48,534 nucleotides of DNA from Nitrososphaerota archaeon. Lineage in GTDB: Archaea; Thermoproteota; Nitrososphaeria; Nitrososphaerales; Gagatemarchaeaceae. The notes under the pieces are model-generated. The model did no database searches, had not been told where the DNA came from, and saw only the letters and a program-made list of their open reading frames with translations. Positions 9,833 through 47,568 of the stretch are shown piece after piece. The position numbers were made by a program, and so were the translations under genes. Where the stretch lies: NCBI GenBank assembly GCA_029785375.1, contig JAFLZV010000001.1:76320-124853 (forward strand), given 5' to 3'. Each line of letters begins with the position of its first letter. Within the stretch, counting starts at the first letter, position 1.

Positions 9833-11509
9833 TCAGCGTGCGACTAGGAGCGAGGGGATCTGGCGGCGCTCCGAAAGGCCGTACCTGGTAGCCTTTTCAA
9901 GGTCCAGACCTCGCTTCTTGCAGATTGACTTCACCTGGCGGAACATCACCCAGCCGCCCAGTCCGACCATGGCCCCGGTGACGTACCTCGCGGCCAGGCT
10001 GGCGTCGCTCGAAGCGCTGGTCGCGTCCCGGGCGGCTATCTTAGCCAGATGCCTGTAGGCAGCGAAGTACACGGCCAGCTGTGACTGGTCCAGTTTCAAA
10101 GACGCGAAATCCCTGCTCTTGAGGAGCCCAAGCGGGACGTGCTGCATGGGGGTGACGGTGAATTCGAACGGGAGCCCGTTGTCGAGGACAGAGTTGCTCA
10201 TCCTGTTGATCAGACCCACCGTGTCCCAGTTGTCTTCGGGGGTTTCGGCCGCCTGCCCCACCTGGACCGTGAAAGCAGGCCTCCAGTAGTATTTGTTCAT
10301 GACATAGGTCCCCCTCCAGACGATGTCGGACCACGACCCGTCCGGGCCGACTTTGAGTGGAAGCGTCTTGTTGGGCATGTGCATCCTCGCCAGGCGGTCG
10401 CTCCCCGTCTCGATGCCGACCTGCAGGCCGATCCAGTTGTTTCTCCCAGCCCTCATGACCGAGGACATCTTGCGCATCAGGTCTGGATAGGCAGCTGGAA
10501 TCGAGATCCTGCCGTGGGTCGGATTGGTGTGGGTGATACCCGGAATGGCCATGACAGCCCTCATCAGGTCTAGGATCGCGTCCTCGTTGGGGACGTAGTT
10601 GCGCCCGTGCTGGTAGGCGAAGACTTCGTCTGTGTGGAGCCAGGCACTGCTCTGGCCAGAGCGGACGTTGACTTCGATTTCGCGCCTCGCTTTTTCAGGC
10701 GAATAGTAGCGTAGAGGCCTGAGCGTGACCTCGCAGAAGTCGCAGCCTATGCCGCACCCGCGCATGATTTCTGTCATCCCCTTCACAGAGGGGTGGACTA
10801 TGTCAGGGATATCGTCGAGAGACGGGAACTGCTTCGAGAACTGGTACCGACTTACGAACTTGGAATTGGGCTCCCACTCCTTCCTGAAGTTTGCGTCGAA
10901 GGTCTGATACCCCCTGAAGAACTCTGTCTTCTCTGTAGAGTCGTCGGAGAGGTACCGGAAGAGGTCACCGGCTATATCGTCAGCTTCGCCCTGGAAAGCG
11001 AAGTCAATCCGGTTCTTGTCGAGTTCCTCTGGCCGGACGGTCAGCTCCCAGACCCCGGGCCCGCCGACGAGAAGTTTCGCCTTCTTCCCCGCCCTCGCTT
11101 TGTTCACCCGCGCGAGCAGGGCTTCGAAGTCCCTCTGGACGTAGGCGCGCGCCCTGGTCTCGAAGAAAACCGCGTATGACATGGTCAGCGGCCCAAGGCC
11201 TAGGGGGTCCATGGTCGAGACGCCGATCACCTCCGTATCGTCGTCTACGAACTCTGAGATATGGTCCTCGTGAGCCACGACCACCTCGTCGCTGGTGAAC
11301 TCCTTTAGCAGGGACGCCTCCAGCTTCCTGATGGCGTAGGGGGCGAGCGCTGCCCTCCCATCGGCGTCGGGAGGAGCGGGACCCTTGAGGAATGAATAGA
11401 TGGCGCCAGGGAAGGCGCTCGTGGGCGCGCTGGCTAGGAAATCGAGCAGTGGGACGCTTCTGTAGCTGCGAGAGAGGGTCGTGTCTGATACAAGCACGAA
11501 CCGGGCCAT
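9833..11509 (-). CDS. Radical SAM protein with N-terminal B12-binding-like region
   Basis: Starting at ATG 11509 (MARFVLVSD), this is a 558-residue protein. Residues 1-200 form a Rossmann-like region (EVIGVSTMDPLG, KLLVGGPGVWEL) like the cobalamin-binding-type domain of B12/radical SAM enzymes. The 4Fe-4S motif is C252-x3-C256-x2-C259 (GCGIGCDFC), followed by PEKARREIE and GLQVGIETGSDRL, typical of the radical SAM barrel. No DxHxxG cobalamin-ligand motif is evident, so B12 binding is doubtful. The enzyme class (methylthiotransferase-like or other) and substrate are unknown. A longer frame starting at 11689 would begin upstream of the TTTTTTAAG element (11540-11550) and overlap the next gene, so I reject it. 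Confidence 0.82.
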   Translation of the reverse strand: MARFVLVSDTTLSRSYRSVPLLDFLASAPTSAFPGAIYSFLKGPAPPDADGRAALAPYAIRKLEASLLKEFTSDEVVVAHEDHISEFVDDDTEVIGVSTMDPLGLGPLTMSYAVFFETRARAYVQRDFEALLARVNKARAGKKAKLLVGGPGVWELTVRPEELDKNRIDFAFQGEADDIAGDLFRYLSDDSTEKTEFFRGYQTFDANFRKEWEPNSKFVSRYQFSKQFPSLDDIPDIVHPSVKGMTEIMRGCGIGCDFCEVTLRPLRYYSPEKARREIEVNVRSGQSSAWLHTDEVFAYQHGRNYVPNEDAILDLMRAVMAIPGITHTNPTHGRISIPAAYPDLMRKMSSVMRAGRNNWIGLQVGIETGSDRLARMHMPNKTLPLKVGPDGSWSDIVWRGTYVMNKYYWRPAFTVQVGQAAETPEDNWDTVGLINRMSNSVLDNGLPFEFTVTPMQHVPLGLLKSRDFASLKLDQSQLAVYFAAYRHLAKIAARDATSASSDASLAARYVTGAMVGLGGWVMFRQVKSICKKRGLDLEKATRYGLSERRQIPSLLVAR

Positions 11510-11550
11510 ATCTGCACGTCCGAAATCAGTGACCCGGAGCTTAAAAAATC

Positions 11551-12090
11551 CTACAGATAGCCTTGAGTTCGATCTAGCCCCGCCTGGAGAATCTTGGTGG
11601 GAGAGCGGCCCGTCTCGGCCGAGAGGTCGTAATCGTTCGCGTCGTATCCCGCCCTGCAATAGGAGTCCCTGTACTTGATGACAAGCCATGCCTCCCTCGA
11701 GGGACCCAGCCCTTTGGTCCGCACGAGGGCGAAGGAGCCCTTTAGCTTCTGGCCGAATAGGACGAACTTCAGGTTACCCTCGCGCAGCCCCGAGACGGCC
11801 ACTTCGTCCGCTTCGTCCCTGTCCTTGACTGCGCGGCGCGTTCCTGAGGTTTCGACTTCGGGAGCGTAGGTTCCCTGGTCCCAAATCATGACGGCGCTCG
11901 CCCCGTAGCTGCCCCCTGGGATCACCCCCTCGAACCGCCTGTATTCTAGCTCATGAGGTCCGGCCGGTATGGCGAGCCTCCTCGCAGAGGGGTCCAGGGA
12001 AGGCCCCTTTGGGACAGACCATGACGGCATCACTCCGTGCGCCTCCAACCTCAGGTCATAGTGGAGAGACCTGGCCCTGTGCTTGTGCAC
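11551..12090 (-). CDS. Stand-alone LigD-type 3'-phosphoesterase (PE domain)
   Basis: The 179-residue protein matches the phosphoesterase domain of bacterial LigD: HKHRARSLHYDLRLE, SWSVPKGPS, the FEGVIPGGSYG loop and IWDQGTY, with the conserved His, Asp and Arg residues of the Mn-dependent active site. In LigD this domain trims 3'-phosphate or 3'-ribonucleotide ends during end joining. No ligase, primase or Ku gene is nearby. Homology continues upstream of the GTG start (FVV before HKH), back to a TAG about 18 codons earlier, but I see no ATG, GTG or TTG in that stretch. The N terminus may thus be short of a few residues or use a rarer start. The epimerase gene ends 42 bases upstream. Confidence 0.83.
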   Translation of the reverse strand: MHKHRARSLHYDLRLEAHGVMPSWSVPKGPSLDPSARRLAIPAGPHELEYRRFEGVIPGGSYGASAVMIWDQGTYAPEVETSGTRRAVKDRDEADEVAVSGLREGNLKFVLFGQKLKGSFALVRTKGLGPSREAWLVIKYRDSYCRAGYDANDYDLSAETGRSPTKILQAGLDRTQGYL

Positions 12091-12132: not shown

Positions 12133-13005
12133 CTAGCTTTGCTGGCGTCGCCAGCTGTGCTCCGGTTCGTAGCCGAGCATCCTCCTCGCCTTGTCTATGG
12201 AGAGCAGTGTCTCGTTCCTGCCGAGACTCTTCTTCACTGGGACCTGTGGGAAGGCAGAGGCCAGGAGCTCCTCGTCGCTCGCGGCCATAACCGTGTCCGA
12301 GTTTGCGATGATGAAAACCTCCGCGCCCTTGATTTTCACTTCGAGCGCCCTTCGCACAGCCTGGGCTGCGTCTCTGGCGTCGATGTACCCCCAAAGGTTC
12401 CACTTGCGGATATTCGGGTCACCCTGGAAAGCTCCGAACTTCTCGTAGTCGTTGGGCTCCATTATGTTAGAGAATCGCAGCGCCACTATCTTCAGGTCAG
12501 GGTCCCACCTGCAGTACTGTTCGGCCATCCTCTCCCCCATGATCTTGCTCAGCGAGTAGGTGCTCTCGGGTCGCCCGGCATACTCCTCGTCCACCGGGAG
12601 GTAGGGGGGCGGGATGTCGAAAGGGAGGCCCAGGACTGTCTCGCTGGACGCCCACACGAGGTTCTTGATCGCGAGCCGGGCCGATGCCTCGAACACGTTG
12701 TAGGTGCTCATGACGTTGTTCTCGAACGTCACCGAGTTGGTGAACAGCCTTGAGTCAGGGATCGCTGCCAGGTGCACCACCCCGTCGACGCCGTGGGGGC
12801 CGCGCTCGACCGCCGCCAGGGAGTCCATGGCCTGGCCGTAGTCAGCGAGGTCGGCCTGTATGGAAGGGCAGAGCTCTTCCGCCGGCTTCTTCTTGTCCAC
12901 GTTGAACACCTCGTAGCCGTGCTCCTTCAGGTCCCTGATGCATGCCCTGCCCGCCTTCCCGCTGCCGCCGGTTACCACCACCCTGGTCAATCTCAACTCG
13001 GCCAT
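12133..13005 (-). CDS. NAD(P)-dependent epimerase/dehydratase (extended SDR)
   Basis: The 290-residue protein has a Rossmann nucleotide-binding motif TGGSGKAG (about 12-19), an acidic DK at the end of beta 2, VDGVVHLAA, and the catalytic YxxxK (Y150, K154, in YSLSK). This is the extended short-chain dehydrogenase fold of nucleotide-sugar epimerases and uronate dehydrogenases. The substrate is unknown. ATG 13003-13005 lies inside the end of the upstream beta-lactamase-fold gene (13-base overlap), so the two are probably cotranscribed. The C terminus (RRMLGYEPEHSW) is typical of this family. Confidence 0.85.
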   Translation of the reverse strand: MAELRLTRVVVTGGSGKAGRACIRDLKEHGYEVFNVDKKKPAEELCPSIQADLADYGQAMDSLAAVERGPHGVDGVVHLAAIPDSRLFTNSVTFENNVMSTYNVFEASARLAIKNLVWASSETVLGLPFDIPPPYLPVDEEYAGRPESTYSLSKIMGERMAEQYCRWDPDLKIVALRFSNIMEPNDYEKFGAFQGDPNIRKWNLWGYIDARDAAQAVRRALEVKIKGAEVFIIANSDTVMAASDEELLASAFPQVPVKKSLGRNETLLSIDKARRMLGYEPEHSWRRQQS

Positions 13006-14384
13006 GTGGTCTCTGTGCGCAGAGGAGAGGGACCGGCCCTCCGGTACCTGTATCTTTCAAAGAACAACTCCACTCCGTGCTGGTCGAACTTGAAGACGAC
13101 CTCCAGCCGAGCGGCCCCTTCTAGGGTGAAGAAGCGCGCCTCTTCACCCTCCCCGCCATCTGGGACAAGTACGATGTTGTTGCCTATGTCCTCCCCCGAG
13201 AGCATCAGGAAGCTACCGGCCTTCTTGACCTCGGCGACCAGCGTGTCCTTGTACGTCGTGTACTGGCCCTCGAGCCTCCTCAGCAGCCGCTCCAGCCTGA
13301 CCGCCCGTAGCTCCTCAGGGTCGGCTCCCGCAAGGAGGGACACGGCAGACATCCCGAGCAGCCCCATGCTGTAGCCGGTGCCGTTGGACAGCAAGACTAC
13401 CCCGGACCTGATGTCACGGACGTACTCCATGTCTGAGGTATAGACGTCCACCGAGCCGCCGTGGCGAACGACCTTGTGCCCGTGGAAGTCTGGGATTATC
13501 ATCAAGCCGTATCCATAGGAGTCCCCCCCGTAGTTTTCGGCGGACCACTTCGCGTAGGGGGTCTCCATCTTGGAAAGGATGTCCCAGGAGACCACCCTCT
13601 TCCCCTCGAACTCTCCGCCGTTGATCAGCATGGTCACGTAGTTTGAAAGGTCTGCGGCGCAGCTCATGATCCCTCCCGCCGCGCCGCTCCCGTATGGGAT
13701 GGGGGTGGGCGTCACCTTCGCGCCCCTTATGGCGTATGGGGTGGCGACGTCAATATCGGTGGAGATGTCAGACCTCGCGAGGAAGGTCCTCTTCATGGCC
13801 AGCGGCGCAAGGACCTCGGCTCTGAGATAGTCGAACCAGTGGCCGCCGCTCACCTTCGAGACTATCTCTCCAAGGAGGACGAATCCCTCGTTGAGATAGT
13901 GGAGCCTCGCCCCCGGCTTCGACACGGTCCAGTCGTCCACCCCGTCCAAGAAAGAGGACATGTCGTCGAGGCTTGCTATGGGGAGCCAGTGATGGTACTC
14001 TCTGAACGCGCTGAACAGGATCACCTCCAGCGAGCCTAGGCCCGGGATCCCGCTCGTGTGGGAAAGCAGGTGGTGTACCTCGACCCCTTGGAAGGCTTTC
14101 TGCTTGAGAGGGATGTACTTGGTGACCTGGTCGTGGAAGTCCATCTTGCCTGACTCCACGAGCTTGCCGACCGCGAGGGCGACGAATGACTTCGTGATCG
14201 AGCCGATCCCATAGAGTGTCTGCGGCGTCGCCGGGCTGGCGGCCCCGGCGTCCTTCCAACCGAAGCCTCTCATATGCACGACCTTCCCATCCTCGATGAC
14301 TGCCGCTGAAACGCTGGGGATCTTGGTCTCGCTCATTCTCGCGAAGACCAGGTCGTCGAATCTCTGCGCGTCGAAAGCTACCAC
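12993..14384 (-). CDS. Serine hydrolase, class C beta-lactamase/penicillin-binding fold
   Basis: The protein carries the three active-site motifs of the family: S62-x-x-K65 (SITK), Y163-x-N165 (YLNEG) and an HxG-type third motif (RHGGS, about 308-311). Archaeal members are usually peptidases or esterases rather than true beta-lactamases. From GTG 14384 it has 463 residues. A TATA box GTTAAAAG (14406-14415) lies exactly 26 bases before this GTG, so I favour it over the upstream GTG 14435. The latter would give 480 residues and overlap the dipeptidase stop as GTGA, a possible second start from the longer transcript. The last ~120 residues (after the catalytic domain) look like a separate small beta domain. 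Confidence 0.83.
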   Translation of the reverse strand: MVAFDAQRFDDLVFARMSETKIPSVSAAVIEDGKVVHMRGFGWKDAGAASPATPQTLYGIGSITKSFVALAVGKLVESGKMDFHDQVTKYIPLKQKAFQGVEVHHLLSHTSGIPGLGSLEVILFSAFREYHHWLPIASLDDMSSFLDGVDDWTVSKPGARLHYLNEGFVLLGEIVSKVSGGHWFDYLRAEVLAPLAMKRTFLARSDISTDIDVATPYAIRGAKVTPTPIPYGSGAAGGIMSCAADLSNYVTMLINGGEFEGKRVVSWDILSKMETPYAKWSAENYGGDSYGYGLMIIPDFHGHKVVRHGGSVDVYTSDMEYVRDIRSGVVLLSNGTGYSMGLLGMSAVSLLAGADPEELRAVRLERLLRRLEGQYTTYKDTLVAEVKKAGSFLMLSGEDIGNNIVLVPDGGEGEEARFFTLEGAARLEVVFKFDQHGVELFFERYRYRRAGPSPLRTETTWPS

Positions 14385-14405
14385 AGGAGGAGTCGCCGGT
14401 CGCCG

Positions 14406-14415
14406 GTTAAAAGAG
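14406..14415 (-). promoter_or_regulatory. TATA box within the end of the dipeptidase operon spacer
   Basis: On the minus strand this reads CTCTTTTAAC. It is centred 26 bases before the GTG start at 14384, consistent with a leaderless transcript for the beta-lactamase-fold gene. Confidence 0.5.
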
Positions 14416-14431
14416 ATGCCATGAACGTGCT

Positions 14432-15430
14432 TCACCAGTGCGACGAACGCTCGAGGATGTACCGGTAGGCGTTACCGTGCATGACCCCGTCCGCCCGATC
14501 TGGGGTAAGTCCAGCACCTACCAGTGCCTTCCTGAGCTTACCCACCTTGGAGACGTCACCGATTTCCTCGGGAGCGCTTGACATCCCCAGGAAGTCTGTC
14601 CCCAGGGCAGGCGCTGCCGGGCCGCCCACCTTGATGAAGCGCTTGGCATGGTCGGCGAGCCTGGCAGGCGTGAACGGGCGGCCGATGCAGCTCCGGATGA
14701 AGGTGAGTCCCACTATTCCACCCCTCCGCCCCGTCTCGCGTATCAGCTCATCCGAGATGTTCCTCAGATTGGGCTGGACCCCTGCGGCGTCAGAGTGGCT
14801 GAAGAATGGGGAGAGCTCGGACGAGCCCAGGGTGTCCGCCGCCGTTCTGGGGGAGGCGTGTGAGAGGTCGACCATCACGCCGAGCTTGTCAGCTGCCGCG
14901 ACGAGTGCCTCGCCTTCGCCTGTGAGCCCGTAGTCCTTGGACGAAAGGCATGACGCCGCAAACTTGTTGTCGTAGTTCCAAGTGAGACCGATGGAGCGCA
15001 CCCCTAGATTGAAGAAGACCTCGAGGTCTTCAGGCTCCCCCAGTGCCTCGCACCCTTCTATGTGGAGGACGACACCGACCCGCCTGCCGAGGGACTCGAT
15101 GTCTTCCCTGGTCCTGACTATCTTGATGTCCTTCGGGTGCATCTTCTCCAGGGCGTAGTATATCTTGACGAGTTCGATGGCGACGTCCCTTGGGGATACG
15201 AGGGCTGAAGAAGCGGACCAGCGCCCATACATCTTCTCCATGGCGGCTATCTTCCTAGGATTGAGGCTCCCGAGGAGCGGAAAGATGGAGCCGAGGACCA
15301 GGGTCATGTCGGCCCTCCTCCACTTCGGGATGTCTGCCTGTCGACCGCGCGCGTCTTCCGAGAACTGCCTGGACCCGCCCATCAGGTAGTAGTAGCCGAT
15401 GTCCTCGTGGAGGTCCACCACCATGGCCAT
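14432..15430 (-). CDS. Membrane dipeptidase-like peptidase, family M19
   Basis: The 332-residue zinc amidohydrolase has VVDLHEDIG at the N terminus (family D-x-H/N-D metal site), EGCEALG (bridging Glu), MVDLSHASPRTAADTL (second-site His), FFSHSDAAGVQPNLRNISDE and a GTDFLG Asp motif. M19 enzymes hydrolyse dipeptides, including those with D-residues. A GATTTAAC box (15447-15454) is 26 bases from ATG 15424, two codons inside the first ATG; either may be used. It lies directly upstream of the beta-lactamase-fold hydrolase, so together they may process peptides. Confidence 0.85.
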   Translation of the reverse strand: MAMVVDLHEDIGYYYLMGGSRQFSEDARGRQADIPKWRRADMTLVLGSIFPLLGSLNPRKIAAMEKMYGRWSASSALVSPRDVAIELVKIYYALEKMHPKDIKIVRTREDIESLGRRVGVVLHIEGCEALGEPEDLEVFFNLGVRSIGLTWNYDNKFAASCLSSKDYGLTGEGEALVAAADKLGVMVDLSHASPRTAADTLGSSELSPFFSHSDAAGVQPNLRNISDELIRETGRRGGIVGLTFIRSCIGRPFTPARLADHAKRFIKVGGPAAPALGTDFLGMSSAPEEIGDVSKVGKLRKALVGAGLTPDRADGVMHGNAYRYILERSSHW

Positions 15431-19474: not shown

Positions 19475-21322
19475 TCACCGGAGTCTGTTGTGGCGGCGCC
19501 GATGACGGCCCAGAGCGACTACGTCGAACAGTATCTTCCGGAAGTTGACTGTCACGCTCCTCGCATAGAACCGGTCTTCGATTAGCACGCCTCTCAGGTC
19601 GTAGTCTTTCTTCTCGCGGAAATCGTATCTTTCGAAGGAGAGGGAATTCGTCAGGTACGACTCGAGATGGTCAGGTTCTGAGTCGACAGTCACCTCCAGT
19701 GGGAGAGGGCCTCCCTTTGAAGATAGCAGAAGGTCGTTCAGCGAGTCCCTCGCCGCGCCGTAGTTCTTCCAAGCCTCTTCGACAAACCGGGAGAATATGC
19801 CGTTGGCCGTCAGCTTTGCTTTGAACGAGCCGTCTGTGTCTTCCGAGTACCCCTTCAGGAGATGCGCCTTGACGTTGAGCTCGTTGGACCTGTCCATCCT
19901 GTAGAGGAACTGCCGGGCAGGGCGCTCGAAGTCGACCTTGTAGGCGTGGTTGAGCGAATCCCCGAAGGCTCCGCAGGCCAGAAAGAACCCCGCCATGTCG
20001 TAGTCGTCCGAAAGGAGCGCGTCTGAGATCATGTGCGCGAAGTCTGGGTCGTAGGGGATTTCGCTCATCAGCAGGCCCTTCCTGGTGATGCCGCGCGGGC
20101 TGAGCGTTATGGCGCCGATGTCCCTCAACCAGCCTTCGGCGAAGCCTACCTCTTTGTGGTTCACTCTCGACATGAACTCTAGACTTGAGAGGTCGAGGCC
20201 GTACTTGGCCATCAGGAGGACAAGGTCGAATGGGGTTTCTGTCTCCAGGTCCTTGTGGACGGGGGCCGGGTCGATTTTCTTGGGGACAGGCGTGCTGGTG
20301 AGAATGACTGCCCGCCCAGGCTTGAACCGTCCGACCCTCCCCATCATCTGCAGGAGGGAGTTGTTGTCCAGCTTGCCGTACTTGAGCGTCTTCTGCCCGA
20401 GGTTGTCCTTGCTGCTGATGACGTCGTTGAATATCAGCGCGTTGTCCACGTAGATGTTCACGGACGAGGCGATGACGTTGGTGGCGAAGATCCTCAGGTT
20501 CCTGTCCTGCTCTGCCCTACGCTGGATTTTGTTCACCTCCGACCCCTCCAGCCCCCCGTGGATGTACACCCCGCCGTAGATCCCCGCGTACTTCTCGACT
20601 AGCCGCCTCGTGGGCAGGAAGACCAGCCAGGACTCGCCTTTGGGCTGCGCGTACAGATACCTCGACAGGGTGTCGAACATGGCGTCCAGGTTGCGGACGA
20701 GCTCTACCTCAACGCGCACCGGGTACCTCCTGCCGCTGACCGAGTGTAGTTTCATGATACCCAGAAAACGGAGGAACTCTCCCGGGTCGATGGTGGCACT
20801 CATCACCCTGAACAGGTTCTTCGCTTCCTGTTTGCCTTTCTTCGCCAGGGACATGCAAAGCTCAAGCTGGGAGGTCATCTGGTGGCTCTCGTCAAAGTAG
20901 ATCGAGGAGCCTGTGACGGACCGGTCTGCGAGCATTCTGATGAGTACGCCGTCGGTCACGATCTTGACCTGACCCTCGACGTTGACCTTGGTGTCCTTGG
21001 TTATGATCGCCAGATGCTCCTTGACCTCCGGGTGCAGCGCTTCGAGGGAGTAGTAGAGCGCGTTGCACGAGGCCCTCGAAGGCTCCCTGATGATGATCTG
21101 ACGTTCTCTCCCCGACTTCTCGAACTCGTGTATTGGGACCACGGTGCTCTTCCCCGTCCCCACGTCTCCGAGGAGCACAAAGTGGTCCGAGAAGTCGATG
21201 GAGTCTAGGATGGGGTAGATTGGCAGGTCGGGCGCGGCCTTGGGCCGCGGCAGCTGGCCTCCCTCTTCCGCCTCTTCCGGGACGATCGACTCGAAGGTGT
21301 CGTCCACTCCAGACTCGCTCAT
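19475..21322 (-). CDS. DEAH-like superfamily 2 helicase with DESH box
   Basis: The 615-residue protein carries SF2 helicase motifs in order: Walker A GDVGTGKST (52-60), REPSRASC (motif Ia, about 79-86), FDESHQ (143-148, motif II, DESH instead of DEAH), MSATID (174-179, motif III), FLPTRR (motif IV region, about 235-240), an ATNVIASSVNI motif V and QMMGRVGRFKPG (325-336, motif VI). The layout resembles HrpA/DEAH RNA helicases and viral NS3-type enzymes, but the C-terminal ~230 residues show no recognised ratchet or OB domain. ATG 21322 is the start. It is divergent from the GNAT gene and has no cotranscribed partner. It most likely remodels RNA or an RNP; this is inferred. Confidence 0.8.
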   Translation of the reverse strand: MSESGVDDTFESIVPEEAEEGGQLPRPKAAPDLPIYPILDSIDFSDHFVLLGDVGTGKSTVVPIHEFEKSGRERQIIIREPSRASCNALYYSLEALHPEVKEHLAIITKDTKVNVEGQVKIVTDGVLIRMLADRSVTGSSIYFDESHQMTSQLELCMSLAKKGKQEAKNLFRVMSATIDPGEFLRFLGIMKLHSVSGRRYPVRVEVELVRNLDAMFDTLSRYLYAQPKGESWLVFLPTRRLVEKYAGIYGGVYIHGGLEGSEVNKIQRRAEQDRNLRIFATNVIASSVNIYVDNALIFNDVISSKDNLGQKTLKYGKLDNNSLLQMMGRVGRFKPGRAVILTSTPVPKKIDPAPVHKDLETETPFDLVLLMAKYGLDLSSLEFMSRVNHKEVGFAEGWLRDIGAITLSPRGITRKGLLMSEIPYDPDFAHMISDALLSDDYDMAGFFLACGAFGDSLNHAYKVDFERPARQFLYRMDRSNELNVKAHLLKGYSEDTDGSFKAKLTANGIFSRFVEEAWKNYGAARDSLNDLLLSSKGGPLPLEVTVDSEPDHLESYLTNSLSFERYDFREKKDYDLRGVLIEDRFYARSVTVNFRKILFDVVALGRHRRRHNRLR

Positions 21323-43966: not shown

Positions 43967-44284
43967 CTATCCCTCCAAGGTCTTCATTTCGCTCACGTCG
44001 ATGTTGTTGTGCAGCCTATAGGCGACTATCACTATGGCCAGGATCACAGCGGCCTCGGCGGCGGCCAGGGCGATCGAGAACAGCACGACCGTCTGGCCCA
44101 CGGCGTTGCTCGCCTCCTGGTAGGGGAGGTACTGGTTGAATGCTACGAAGTTCAGGTTGGCGGCGTTTATCATCAGCTCGACGGCGAACAGGAGCCTCAT
44201 GGCGTTCCGCTTGGTCACCAAACCGTAGACGCCTATGCCGAAGAGGAGGGCAGAAACTACGACGAAGTCGGAGAGAGAATTCAA
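43967..44284 (-). CDS. nuoK: Complex I subunit K
   Basis: The 105-residue protein has three helices. Helix 2 has AVELMINAANLNFVAF with the conserved Glu, and helix 3 has ALAAAEAAVILAIVI with a second Glu, both typical of NuoK. The start overlaps nuoJ by four bases. It is the small linker between the Q module and antiporters. Confidence 0.9.
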   Translation of the reverse strand: MNSLSDFVVVSALLFGIGVYGLVTKRNAMRLLFAVELMINAANLNFVAFNQYLPYQEASNAVGQTVVLFSIALAAAEAAVILAIVIVAYRLHNNIDVSEMKTLEG

Positions 44285-44763
44285 CGAGTGTCCCCCTCCC
44301 TGTCGACTCTGGACAGGGCCAGGGCGCCCACGATGGAAGCGGCCAGAACCAAGGCGAGCACCTCCAGGACGGGCGCGTAGCCTGTCGAGATGAGCTTGCC
44401 CACGTCTATGTAGGTCGCTGTGTTAGCGATGACGGTGAACCTCGAGAGGTCGGTCGCCAGGACAGCGAAGGTCAGCGCGAGTATGACCGCCACCGCTGCG
44501 ATCACCCCTGCGACGGTCGTAGTCGACTTCGGCCTCGCCTCTCCGGCCCAGCCCTCCTGCCTCACCAGCATCACGGTGAACAGGATGAGGACCGCCACGG
44601 CCCCGATGTAGACGGCGATCTGGAAGACCGCCACGTAGGGGGCATTGAGGAGGAAGAAGAGAGTGGCTACCCCGAACAGCGAGCCTGCGAGGCCGATGGC
44701 GCCGTAGACGAGCTCCTTCGCCTCAAGAGAGACTATCGCACCACCGACCGTGACGACCGCCAT
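44281..44763 (-). CDS. nuoJ: Complex I subunit J
   Basis: The 160-residue protein has five helices, including LNAPYVAVFQIAVYIGAVAVLILFTVMLV, the NuoJ signature with the pi-bulge helix. ATG 44763 is 16 bases after the nuoI stop. It overlaps nuoK. Confidence 0.9.
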   Translation of the reverse strand: MAVVTVGGAIVSLEAKELVYGAIGLAGSLFGVATLFFLLNAPYVAVFQIAVYIGAVAVLILFTVMLVRQEGWAGEARPKSTTTVAGVIAAVAVILALTFAVLATDLSRFTVIANTATYIDVGKLISTGYAPVLEVLALVLAASIVGALALSRVDREGDTR

Positions 44764-44779: not shown

Positions 44780-46399
44780 TCAGCCGTAGGTGACCACCCC
44801 CTTTTCGGTGTCGAACTTCACTTTGTACTTCTTGCCTTCCAGCTTCGGCGGGACGGCGAGCATGTCAGGCGTGTACTTCAGGCCCATCTTGTCGTAGGCC
44901 GCCAGCTCGTATTCGTTGGTCATGTCGAGGGCGTCGAAGGGGCATGCGTCGACACAGAGGCCGCAGAAGACGCAGTTGTGGACAGAGACATTTGAGGCAA
45001 CGTAGCTGTTATCTCCTTCGACCTCCAGGTTCTGCACAAGATAATTGCTTACTTCCTTAACCTCGATCTTGACCACTGGGGAGACTACCATCCGGTCGCT
45101 GATGTGTACGTAACTGTGCGAGACCTCGTTATTCTTCGCAGGGAGTTCCACAAGCTGACCCATCGCCTCGACATAGGGCGTGTGAACTGTGACCGAGTAG
45201 CACAGCTTACGGTCTTTCTGCTTCTCAGTGCTGACGGAAGACAGTATCTCCAAGCGACTCAGGATATAATGCGTCTGCATCGCCAACTCGCTTGACGTTG
45301 TTCGGATGATGAAGTAGTTCGAGCGCATCTTAGTGGCGTACTCGTAGAATTTATTCGAATAGTGACCATCGCTCCAGAATTCACCACGGACTATCTCCCG
45401 TATGTTGACAGGCGGGAGCAAGACCATCCACCATGGCAGCTTCTTGGTGTCTGCCGAATGCCCGAACTGCGAGAAGAAAGCAGCAACCCTGACCGAGTCG
45501 ATGCGTAGTTTCAGGCCGTCAGAATCCGCTTCGGGTTTGAGCGATATGCCAGTTCCGAAGACTTTCAAAGTGCACTCGACTATATCGTCTTTGATGTCAG
45601 TCTCGTTCTTGTGTATATCGAATGAGACCCTGTAGCGATCAGACGACCCTTCGGCAAGATAGTAACCAATCAGCCTCATCAACTCTGGCGTAGCCCCTAG
45701 AGAGACCGTTTCAGTGGTGAACATGCCACCTCGTCCCGCAGGATGGTATAGCTCGTAAGAGTATTCGATTTGCTCCCTCGGTTCTTCTTCAGCAATGATC
45801 GGCCTTGTGAGGTATGTCCGGCAGGAGACCTCGTTTGCGAAGACCCACGAGACCCCCTTCTCTCCGTATACCAGAATCGGGTGGTCTTCTGTCGTCGTAA
45901 GTGGTTCAGAGTTGCCCAGAGTCTTGAAGGTGTAAAGCTTGCCCGTGTATTTTCTAGCGAATAGGCGAGTCACCTTCCTGAACTTCCCCGTGTGCGTCAA
46001 CACTCTGTCGCCCACACGGACCTCCGACAGGGGTTTGATGCCGCCGAGCGTCGTTATGGGTGTAGAAGGCGGAAGGCATCTGCCGTAGTCGACGGCCGGC
46101 CAGATCTCCTTCTTGTTTTGGGGCTTCCCCTTCTCGACCTTCTGCATGTCGATGGCCATGGCGACGCCGTCGCAGGCTATGGCGCAGAGCTGGCAGCCGG
46201 TGCACTTCTCGAACCTGAGTATGTGCCTCCCCTTGAACCCTGGGAGCCCGACCCCCTGTCGGGCGTCGTACCTGTACCCCTGCCCCTCGAGGTCCTGCTT
46301 CTGGTCTGGGTAGCGCAAGGTCATCCTGGGGCGGAAGAAGTGCCGCACCCCAGACCAGGTCGCTACTAACACACCTTTGACGTAGTTCCAGGTGCCCAC
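44780..46399 (-). CDS. nuoI: Complex I subunit I (two 4Fe-4S ferredoxin-like), interrupted by an intein
   Basis: The mature NuoI is 171 residues: 107 N-terminal (from GTG 46397-46399) and 64 C-terminal. It carries electrons between the input and quinone modules. The N-extein ends with CTGCQLCAIAC (first cluster, about 66-76) and VDYGR. The C-extein begins CVFCGLCVDACPFDAL (second cluster). Between them are 368 in-frame residues, an intein (separate entry). GTG 46399 shares one base with the nuoH stop; a longer frame from 46711 overlaps nuoH in another frame and is rejected. Confidence 0.93.
   Translation of the reverse strand: MGTWNYVKGVLVATWSGVRHFFRPRMTLRYPDQKQDLEGQGYRYDARQGVGLPGFKGRHILRFEKCTGCQLCAIACDGVAMAIDMQKVEKGKPQNKKEIWPAVDYGRCLPPSTPITTLGGIKPLSEVRVGDRVLTHTGKFRKVTRLFARKYTGKLYTFKTLGNSEPLTTTEDHPILVYGEKGVSWVFANEVSCRTYLTRPIIAEEEPREQIEYSYELYHPAGRGGMFTTETVSLGATPELMRLIGYYLAEGSSDRYRVSFDIHKNETDIKDDIVECTLKVFGTGISLKPEADSDGLKLRIDSVRVAAFFSQFGHSADTKKLPWWMVLLPPVNIREIVRGEFWSDGHYSNKFYEYATKMRSNYFIIRTTSSELAMQTHYILSRLEILSSVSTEKQKDRKLCYSVTVHTPYVEAMGQLVELPAKNNEVSHSYVHISDRMVVSPVVKIEVKEVSNYLVQNLEVEGDNSYVASNVSVHNCVFCGLCVDACPFDALDMTNEYELAAYDKMGLKYTPDMLAVPPKLEGKKYKVKFDTEKGVVTYG
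44975..46078 (-). mobile_element. Intein with LAGLIDADG endonuclease in NuoI
   Basis: 368 residues, starting with Cys1 (CLPPSTPITT, block A) and ending VSVHN with penultimate His367 and Asn368; the +1 extein residue is Cys. Block B is TTTEDHPI (61-68, Thr and His). Dodecapeptide 1 is LIGYYLAEG (136-144), the second FWSDGHY (234-240). Block F is SNYLVQNLEVEGDNSYV (344-360). All splicing residues are intact and both endonuclease motifs have an acidic residue, so homing may be active. Its DNA is visibly AT-richer than the flanks, suggesting transfer. Confidence 0.95.
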
Positions 46400-47568
46400 T
46401 AGTGAACCACCCCGAGAGAGACCAGCACCATGGTGAGGAAGATGTTGGCGAAAGAGATCGCAAGCAGCTTCACCCATCCCGCCCTGAGCAGCATGTCGAT
46501 CCTGAGCCTGGGCATTATGCTGCGCGGGAGCATCATGAAGATGTCTACGATGGTGACCTTGACCAGGAACCAGGCCACGGGCGGGACGGGGGCGGGCCCC
46601 AGCCATCCACCAAGAAAGAAGGTGGTGAAGAGCCCGGCCATGACGTACATCCTCGTGAAGTTTGCCAGTTGGAAGCTGCCGAAGAGCATGCTTGAGTATT
46701 CCGTCTGCCACCCGGCCACGAGCTCGCTGTCAGCCTCGGGCAGGTCGAAGGGTATCCTCTCGAGCTCCGCCAGGGCGCAGATGTAGAAGACCACCGCTGC
46801 CAGGAACTCAGGGACGATGTTCCAGAGCCCCGTCTGGGCGGTGACTATATCCATGAGGTTCAGCGAGCCCGCGAGGACCACCACCCCGACGAGGGACAGT
46901 ATCATTGGGATCTCGTAGGCCACCAGCTGGTGAAGAGCCCTGAGCCCGCCCAGGAACGGGAACTTGCTGTTGCTTGCCCACCCCGCTATGAGCACCACCA
47001 GCGGGGTGAATCCTAGGATGGCGAAGGCCATGACCGCCCCCACGGGGGGGTTGGCGATGAAGACCGTGGGAGAGAGCGGGAGGAGGGCGACCAAGGCGCC
47101 GGCGACCGCCATGAGCGCGAGCGGGACGGCCAGGAAGGTGGCCCGGTCCACTCCGCTGGGTATCAGCATCTCCTTGAACGCGAGCTTGAGGAAGTCGGCC
47201 ACGTTCTGGAGTATCCCTTCGACCTTCCCGGCGTACATCGGGCCGGTCCTCAACTGGATTTTTGCCGTCATCTTCCTCTCGACCCAGCCCATGAAGATGG
47301 TCCCATAGACGGCCACGAAGGAGAAGCCTGGGAAGACGACCAGCGCGAAGATGGTCTTGAAGGGCTCGGTGGAAAGGAGGCGGAGGACGAATGCGAAGAC
47401 TAGGCCCGGGTTGCTGGCGATCCGAATGAAATCGACAGGGAGGTGCAGGTAGGAGCCGACCACGTAGTAGACTGGGAGGCCGACCACGGCTAAGATCAGC
47501 AGCAGGAAGATGACTACGACGAGTACCCGCTTTACGAAGCCTTCGAAGGTCACAATAGGCTTCGACAT
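46399..47568 (-). CDS. nuoH: Complex I subunit H (quinone-binding membrane subunit)
   Basis: The 389-residue protein has nine helices. GWVERKMTAKIQLRTGPMYAGKVEGILQNVADFLKLAFKE is the quinone-site signature, followed by ERIPFDLPEADSELVAGWQTEYSSM, the conserved acidic loop. ATG 47568 is downstream of TATA 47601-47606. It is the first gene of the operon; nuoA-D are not in the window. Confidence 0.95.
   Translation of the reverse strand: MSKPIVTFEGFVKRVLVVVIFLLLILAVVGLPVYYVVGSYLHLPVDFIRIASNPGLVFAFVLRLLSTEPFKTIFALVVFPGFSFVAVYGTIFMGWVERKMTAKIQLRTGPMYAGKVEGILQNVADFLKLAFKEMLIPSGVDRATFLAVPLALMAVAGALVALLPLSPTVFIANPPVGAVMAFAILGFTPLVVLIAGWASNSKFPFLGGLRALHQLVAYEIPMILSLVGVVVLAGSLNLMDIVTAQTGLWNIVPEFLAAVVFYICALAELERIPFDLPEADSELVAGWQTEYSSMLFGSFQLANFTRMYVMAGLFTTFFLGGWLGPAPVPPVAWFLVKVTIVDIFMMLPRSIMPRLRIDMLLRAGWVKLLAISFANIFLTMVLVSLGVVH

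Follow-up and report, generated by a model that had tools for sequence, protein, structure and literature searches.

A putative homing intein directly before an iron-sulfur cluster ligand of the complex I subunit NuoI in the archaeal family Gagatemarchaeaceae

In a soil archaeon of the Gagatemarchaeaceae, the gene for the complex I subunit NuoI is interrupted within its second 4Fe-4S motif by an in-frame element of 368 codons, which raises the question whether this element controls the maturation of complex I or is a mobile intein lodged in a conserved codon run. The locus lies in a window of 48,534 nucleotides, the whole stretch of DNA analysed, from a 728-kb MAG of 61% completeness (G000). 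The family corresponds to Thaumarchaeota group I.1c (GTDB f_UBA183), and the text of the paper on Gagatemarchaeaceae does not mention inteins (PMC10640624). The locus comprises the following features:

44780-46399, minus strand: interrupted nuoI (GTG start at 46399, stop codon 44780-44782)
46399-47568: neighbouring nuoH
44281-44763: neighbouring nuoJ
46079-46399, minus strand: N-extein, 107 residues, holding the first 4Fe-4S motif CTGCQLCAIAC and ending in DYGR
44975-46078, minus strand: site-a intein, 368 residues, Hint splicing domain plus LAGLIDADG endonuclease
46076-46078, minus strand: intein Cys1, first splicing nucleophile, invariant in 26 aligned inteins
45881-45892, minus strand: block B region T63-T-E-D-H (TxxH, T63 to H66; T63 and H66 invariant)
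45179-45706, minus strand: homing-endonuclease domain, approximately residues 125-300
45647-45673, minus strand: first LAGLIDADG motif, LIGYYLAEG
45365-45391, minus strand: second LAGLIDADG motif, VRGEFWSDG, with Ser replacing the usual Gly before Asp
44975-44980, minus strand: C-terminal splicing residues His367-Asn368
44972-44974, minus strand: Cys+1, first C-extein residue
44783-44974, minus strand: C-extein, 64 residues, starting with CVFCGLCVDACP
44956-44957, minus strand: site b, between C-extein codons 6 and 7, empty in G000 and filled in relatives
Junction peptide of the predicted spliced NuoI: CVFCGLCVDACPFDALDMTNEYELAAYDK

Computed removal of the intein gave a NuoI of 171 amino acids, as the first-pass annotation of this DNA had predicted; once spliced, it contains two CxxCxxCxxxC(P) motifs, and the gene stands in a nuo context. 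The NuoI model TIGR01971, the best-scoring family, matched the spliced extein in one piece with 101 bits and the precursor in two pieces with 88 bits; the 101 bits did not reach the curated cut-off of 113, which may be expectable for a divergent archaeal NuoI. We take cysteines 1-3 of the second motif to bind cluster N6b and cysteine 4 to bind N6a, as in Nqo9 of T. thermophilus, and the intein thus sits directly before an N6b ligand. This supports the earlier suggestion that Cys+1 is both splicing nucleophile and cluster ligand, and it is plausible that the cluster could not be inserted before splicing.

The element forms a stop-free minus-strand frame (44975-46078) reading CLPPSTP...VSVHN, followed by Cys. 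An alignment of 26 related inteins showed C1, T63, H66 and N368 to be invariant, and the combination of Cys1, block B TxxH and C-terminal Asn with Cys+1 (HN, then C) is that of class 1. The first-pass annotation had placed the intein at the same coordinates, between Arg and the first cysteine of CxxCxxCxxxCP; the frame puts it exactly between Arg107 and the first cysteine of CVFCGLCVDACP, and the intact splicing residues (Cys1, T63xxH66, H367-N368, Cys+1) were all found. The two dodecapeptide motifs that it had named were recovered as LIGYYLAEG and VRGEFWSDG, each helix ending in its acidic residue (E143 and D237); since motif 2 carries SDG instead of the usual GDG, the endonuclease of this copy may be weakened. 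The Pfam model Intein_splicing matched the precursor at an E value of 2e-7 and the isolated intein at 7e-8; the latter match missed the curated cut-off (32.9 versus 35.8 bits), which reflects a scoring threshold and not a functional feature. LAGLIDADG_3 scored above its Pfam cut-off.

The AF2 model of the intein (pLDDT 90) retrieved solved inteins by Foldseek with best E values of 3.8e-22 to 1.9e-15 (TliVMA, PhoVMA, PI-PfuI, PI-SceI), and the predicted structure has the Hint fold. The exteins in an AF2 model of the whole precursor were of low confidence (mean pLDDT 64), and nothing is therefore concluded on the cluster geometry before splicing. A comparison of base composition, proposed at first pass, gave a GC content of 0.52 and a GC3 of 0.66 for the intein versus 0.59-0.63 and 0.89 for the exteins. 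The uninterrupted frame, together with the Hint domain that the two ends of the element make up, led us to reject an intron or a free-standing endonuclease. A chance resemblance is excluded by the Pfam scores, by the model with its Foldseek matches and by nucleotide-identical copies of the element in two other MAGs. Judged by sequence and model, we are dealing with a full-length class 1 intein of the standard type that carries a homing endonuclease and is presumably active.

The reading that we consider very probable is that nuoI harbours a class 1 intein, presumably active and equipped with a LAGLIDADG endonuclease, that is subject to homing, horizontal spread and later endonuclease decay. 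The Hint domain would excise itself after translation by an N-S shift at Cys1, transesterification to Cys+1 and cyclisation of Asn368; the rejoined exteins would yield the 171-residue NuoI, in which Cys+1 would then ligate cluster N6b. At the DNA level, the endonuclease would cut intein-free nuoI at the conserved codon run, and repair would copy the intein in; the horizontal transfer described below supports such cutting of the empty site indirectly. Horizontal spread would come first, and the endonuclease would then decay or be deleted, while the intein would persist because at an essential ligand nothing but its exact removal can be tolerated.

The distribution of NuoI inteins was analysed in 46 genomes of the family, 36 of which have a readable nuoI; the gene was interrupted in 28 of these and empty in eight. 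Two insertion sites are used: site a (DYGR/CVFC, the slash marking the insertion point) and site b (CVFCGL/CVDACP), which precedes the third Cys and lies 18 bp downstream of site a. Alleles with site a alone, site b alone or both filled occur. The middle extein of double alleles is six residues long (CVFCGL; CVFCAL in G012), so that two splicing events must finish for one 4Fe-4S motif. Most site-b inteins end in ATSN, not HN, and the intein's own Cys1 stands in for the third cluster ligand at this site. The complete genome G019 has a single-copy nuoI that carries a site-b intein, and splicing should therefore be needed there. Outside the family, site a is filled in f25 (G429) and site b in f9 (G097, G103), f45 (G384) and f72 (G574, G619), with a further site-b match by search only in f72 (G595); the remaining NuoI frames listed in the order have no interruption. 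The G028 bin (8% contamination) contains two nuoI alleles (L012, L051), one matching G021 and one matching G039, and is probably mixed.

NuoI inteins of sites a and b form two clean clades in the intein tree, and their occupancy requires eight changes at site a and eleven at site b on a host tree built from NuoH, NuoJ and the NuoI exteins. The intein of G000 shares 95.2% DNA identity with that of G021 (dS 0.13), versus a dS of 0.82 for the exteins and 81% identity for NuoH. G023 is a closer host to G000 (NuoH 95%), yet its intein is only 69% identical at the amino acid level. In approximately unbiased (AU) tests, the intein sequences rejected the grouping of the hosts (p = 2.7e-54) and the host sequences rejected that of the inteins (p = 4.9e-9), p values that are optimistic because the groups were named after the trees had been seen; the likelihood gaps are large (96 and 311 units). 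The nuoI of G040, a complete genome and the sister of G021 on the host tree, is empty. A comparison of G021, G040 and G000 around the site revealed no clear co-conversion tract. Viruses, phages and plasmids were considered as source and gave only distant generic matches, mostly at 22-29% identity with a few short pieces at 41%. The strong conflict between the intein and host trees shows that the site-a intein is a horizontally moving element.

Endonuclease decay is seen in several relatives. Site-a inteins of G039, G012 and G014 are 172-182 amino acids long with the endonuclease absent, the catalytic acids are lost in endonucleases of G004 and G005, and in G005 both endonucleases are without the first catalytic acid and the intein GC3 equals that of the host. 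Four of five double alleles (L051-L056) have a dead or deleted site-a endonuclease, versus one of 12 site-a-only alleles (Fisher p = 0.0099, with kinship ignored and the comparison picked post hoc), which fits the mutual interference reported for neighbouring inteins (PMC10643990). Taken together, the alleles give a picture of what appears to be a homing cycle of arrival, fixation, endonuclease decay and loss.

Within the same family, further inteins were found in NuoB, between the tandem N2 cysteines (ETAC/CSVEV) and, at a second site, before the next N2 ligand (MGA/C[SA]ITGG; NuoB intein loci L103, L104, L109, L111 and L113-L126). Both NuoB sites are filled in G004 and G005, and G005 carries four inteins in complex I, across two subunits, each directly before a cluster ligand. 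The site-a intein thus belongs to a hot spot that includes site b, 18 bp away, and the two NuoB N2 sites. Other inteins precede Fe-S ligand cysteines in KorB (2-oxoacid:ferredoxin oxidoreductase beta; WCPG/CGDFG), an Mrp/NUBPL-type iron-transfer NTPase (CPH/CGEK), aconitase (CTT/CIGNSG) and the radical-SAM enzyme AmmeMemoRadiSam (CSWA/CSYC), and SufB has inteins at cysteines (L152, L153, L058, L060, L064 and L065 for these five hosts). KorB inteins at WCPG/CGDFG also occur in family f10 (L083, L084; G193, G109), so this Fe-S site is more widely shared within the order. The one-contig complete genome G019 has seven inteins, five of them directly before a 4Fe-4S ligand, the ligand roles being taken by us as established; the remaining two hosts are MCM and a Ski2-like helicase. 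This Fe-S enrichment is not general, the intein hosts of G036 and G040 being mostly NTPase, replication and translation proteins.

The window's own genome has three more inteins, in an eIF2-gamma-like GTPase (P-loop), topoisomerase VI subunit A and GlmS (L072, L073, L074), and two uninterrupted NuoB copies (G000:C3:64179-64703 and G000:C11:4371-4895); one of the latter is approximately 57 kb from nuoI, so the complex I genes are not in a single cluster. Elsewhere in the window, the minus-strand gene at 12993-14435 encodes what is likely a Pab87-like peptidase, with a serine beta-lactamase fold and a Pab87 octamerisation domain; two minus-strand ORFs at 9833-11689 (618 aa) and 19475-21322 (615 aa) matched no Pfam family at an E value of 1e-10.

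The first-pass annotation had suggested that, through the intein, complex I assembly could come under the influence of redox or metal state. In such a switch, oxidation of Cys1, Cys+1 or nearby Fe-S cysteines, or metal binding to them, would hold splicing back and so restrict complex I maturation to suitable conditions. In its favour, inteins stand immediately ahead of Fe-S ligands in several of the family's proteins, as do five of the seven inteins of G019. At site b, KorB, Mrp and aconitase the Fe-S motif moreover supplies an extein Cys at -3; a Cys in this position traps Cys1 by a disulfide in the MoaA intein and in the DnaE redox-trap construct (PMC3922620). Site a, however, has no N-extein Cys near Cys1 and no Cys at -3, and the regulatory suggestion is thus without specific support there. 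The eight relatives without a nuoI intein and the patchy spread leave no conserved regulatory use evident, and inteins generally prefer conserved catalytic codons. We therefore consider a redox- or metal-gated switch at this locus very unlikely. The wider proposal, that inteins of the family at complex I (NuoI a/b, NuoB 1/2) and at other Fe-S ligands gate maturation, with redox or iron state acting via Cys-3/Cys1, Cys1/Cys+1 or metal binding, seems to us unlikely as well, if a little less so; the case for redox or metal control of splicing would be weakest at site a, site b having a Cys-3. The simpler explanation is that a homing element has settled in a run of conserved codons under functional constraint, in view of the patchy distribution, the empty close relatives, the horizontal transfer and the endonuclease decay; we infer splicing, DNA cleavage and the dispensability of any regulatory role.

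An inactive or slow intein in a decaying nuoI allele is hardly credible: the change from Gly to Ser in the second LAGLIDADG motif shows drift of some residues, but the splicing residues are intact, the site-a intein is under purifying selection (dN/dS of approximately 0.2, G000 versus G021), no second full nuoI was found in the 61%-complete genome, and the surrounding complex I genes are intact. An assembly artefact or chimera, to which the incomplete MAG and an intein GC unlike the flanks might point, has a negligible probability, given identical junctions in independent MAGs over a wide range of sequence distances, a site-a element nucleotide-identical to that of G000 in two other MAGs, and the site-b junctions in the one-contig genome G019.

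The site-a intein in NuoI resembles TliVMA, PhoVMA, PI-PfuI and PI-SceI in its Hint domain and two-motif LAGLIDADG endonuclease, but shares only 11-16% sequence identity with them, and their hosts are the VMA ATPase and ribonucleotide reductase, as opposed to an Fe-S subunit of complex I. Its nearest relatives are the site-b NuoI inteins (approximately 35% identical) and the KorB inteins (approximately 30%), which likewise stand before Fe-S ligand cysteines but form separate clades. The inteins of Mycobacterium tuberculosis SufB and Pyrococcus abyssi MoaA, which are reported to respond to oxidative conditions or a Cys-3/Cys1 disulfide (PMC5874633, PMC3922620), also lie in Fe-S-related proteins, though in different hosts; NuoI site a lacks the Cys-3 of the MoaA-type trap, whereas site b has it in relatives. 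Haloarchaeal MCM-a and MCM-d are two neighbouring mobile inteins with patchy distribution, single and double alleles and mutual interference (PMC10643990), whereas the NuoI sites are just 18 bp apart and their two inteins are related. A 2023 survey of 18 Thaumarchaeota genomes reported a single intein and no gene with several (PMC10643990). The first-pass expectation that NuoI is an uncommon intein host was borne out in so far as the open literature searched, which covers the field incompletely, yielded no description of inteins in either NuoI or NuoB; public genomes, though, contain many NuoI inteins at this exact site and at a second one. Both the hot spot in complex I and the middle extein of six residues appear to be new.

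Complex I subunits thus seem to be previously unreported intein hosts. The empty, single, double and endonuclease-less alleles of the Gagatemarchaeaceae provide a natural series on how neighbouring inteins interact, and site b, with its native CVFC-GL-Cys1 arrangement, offers a direct way to address the debated question of redox-conditional splicing within the natural host protein.
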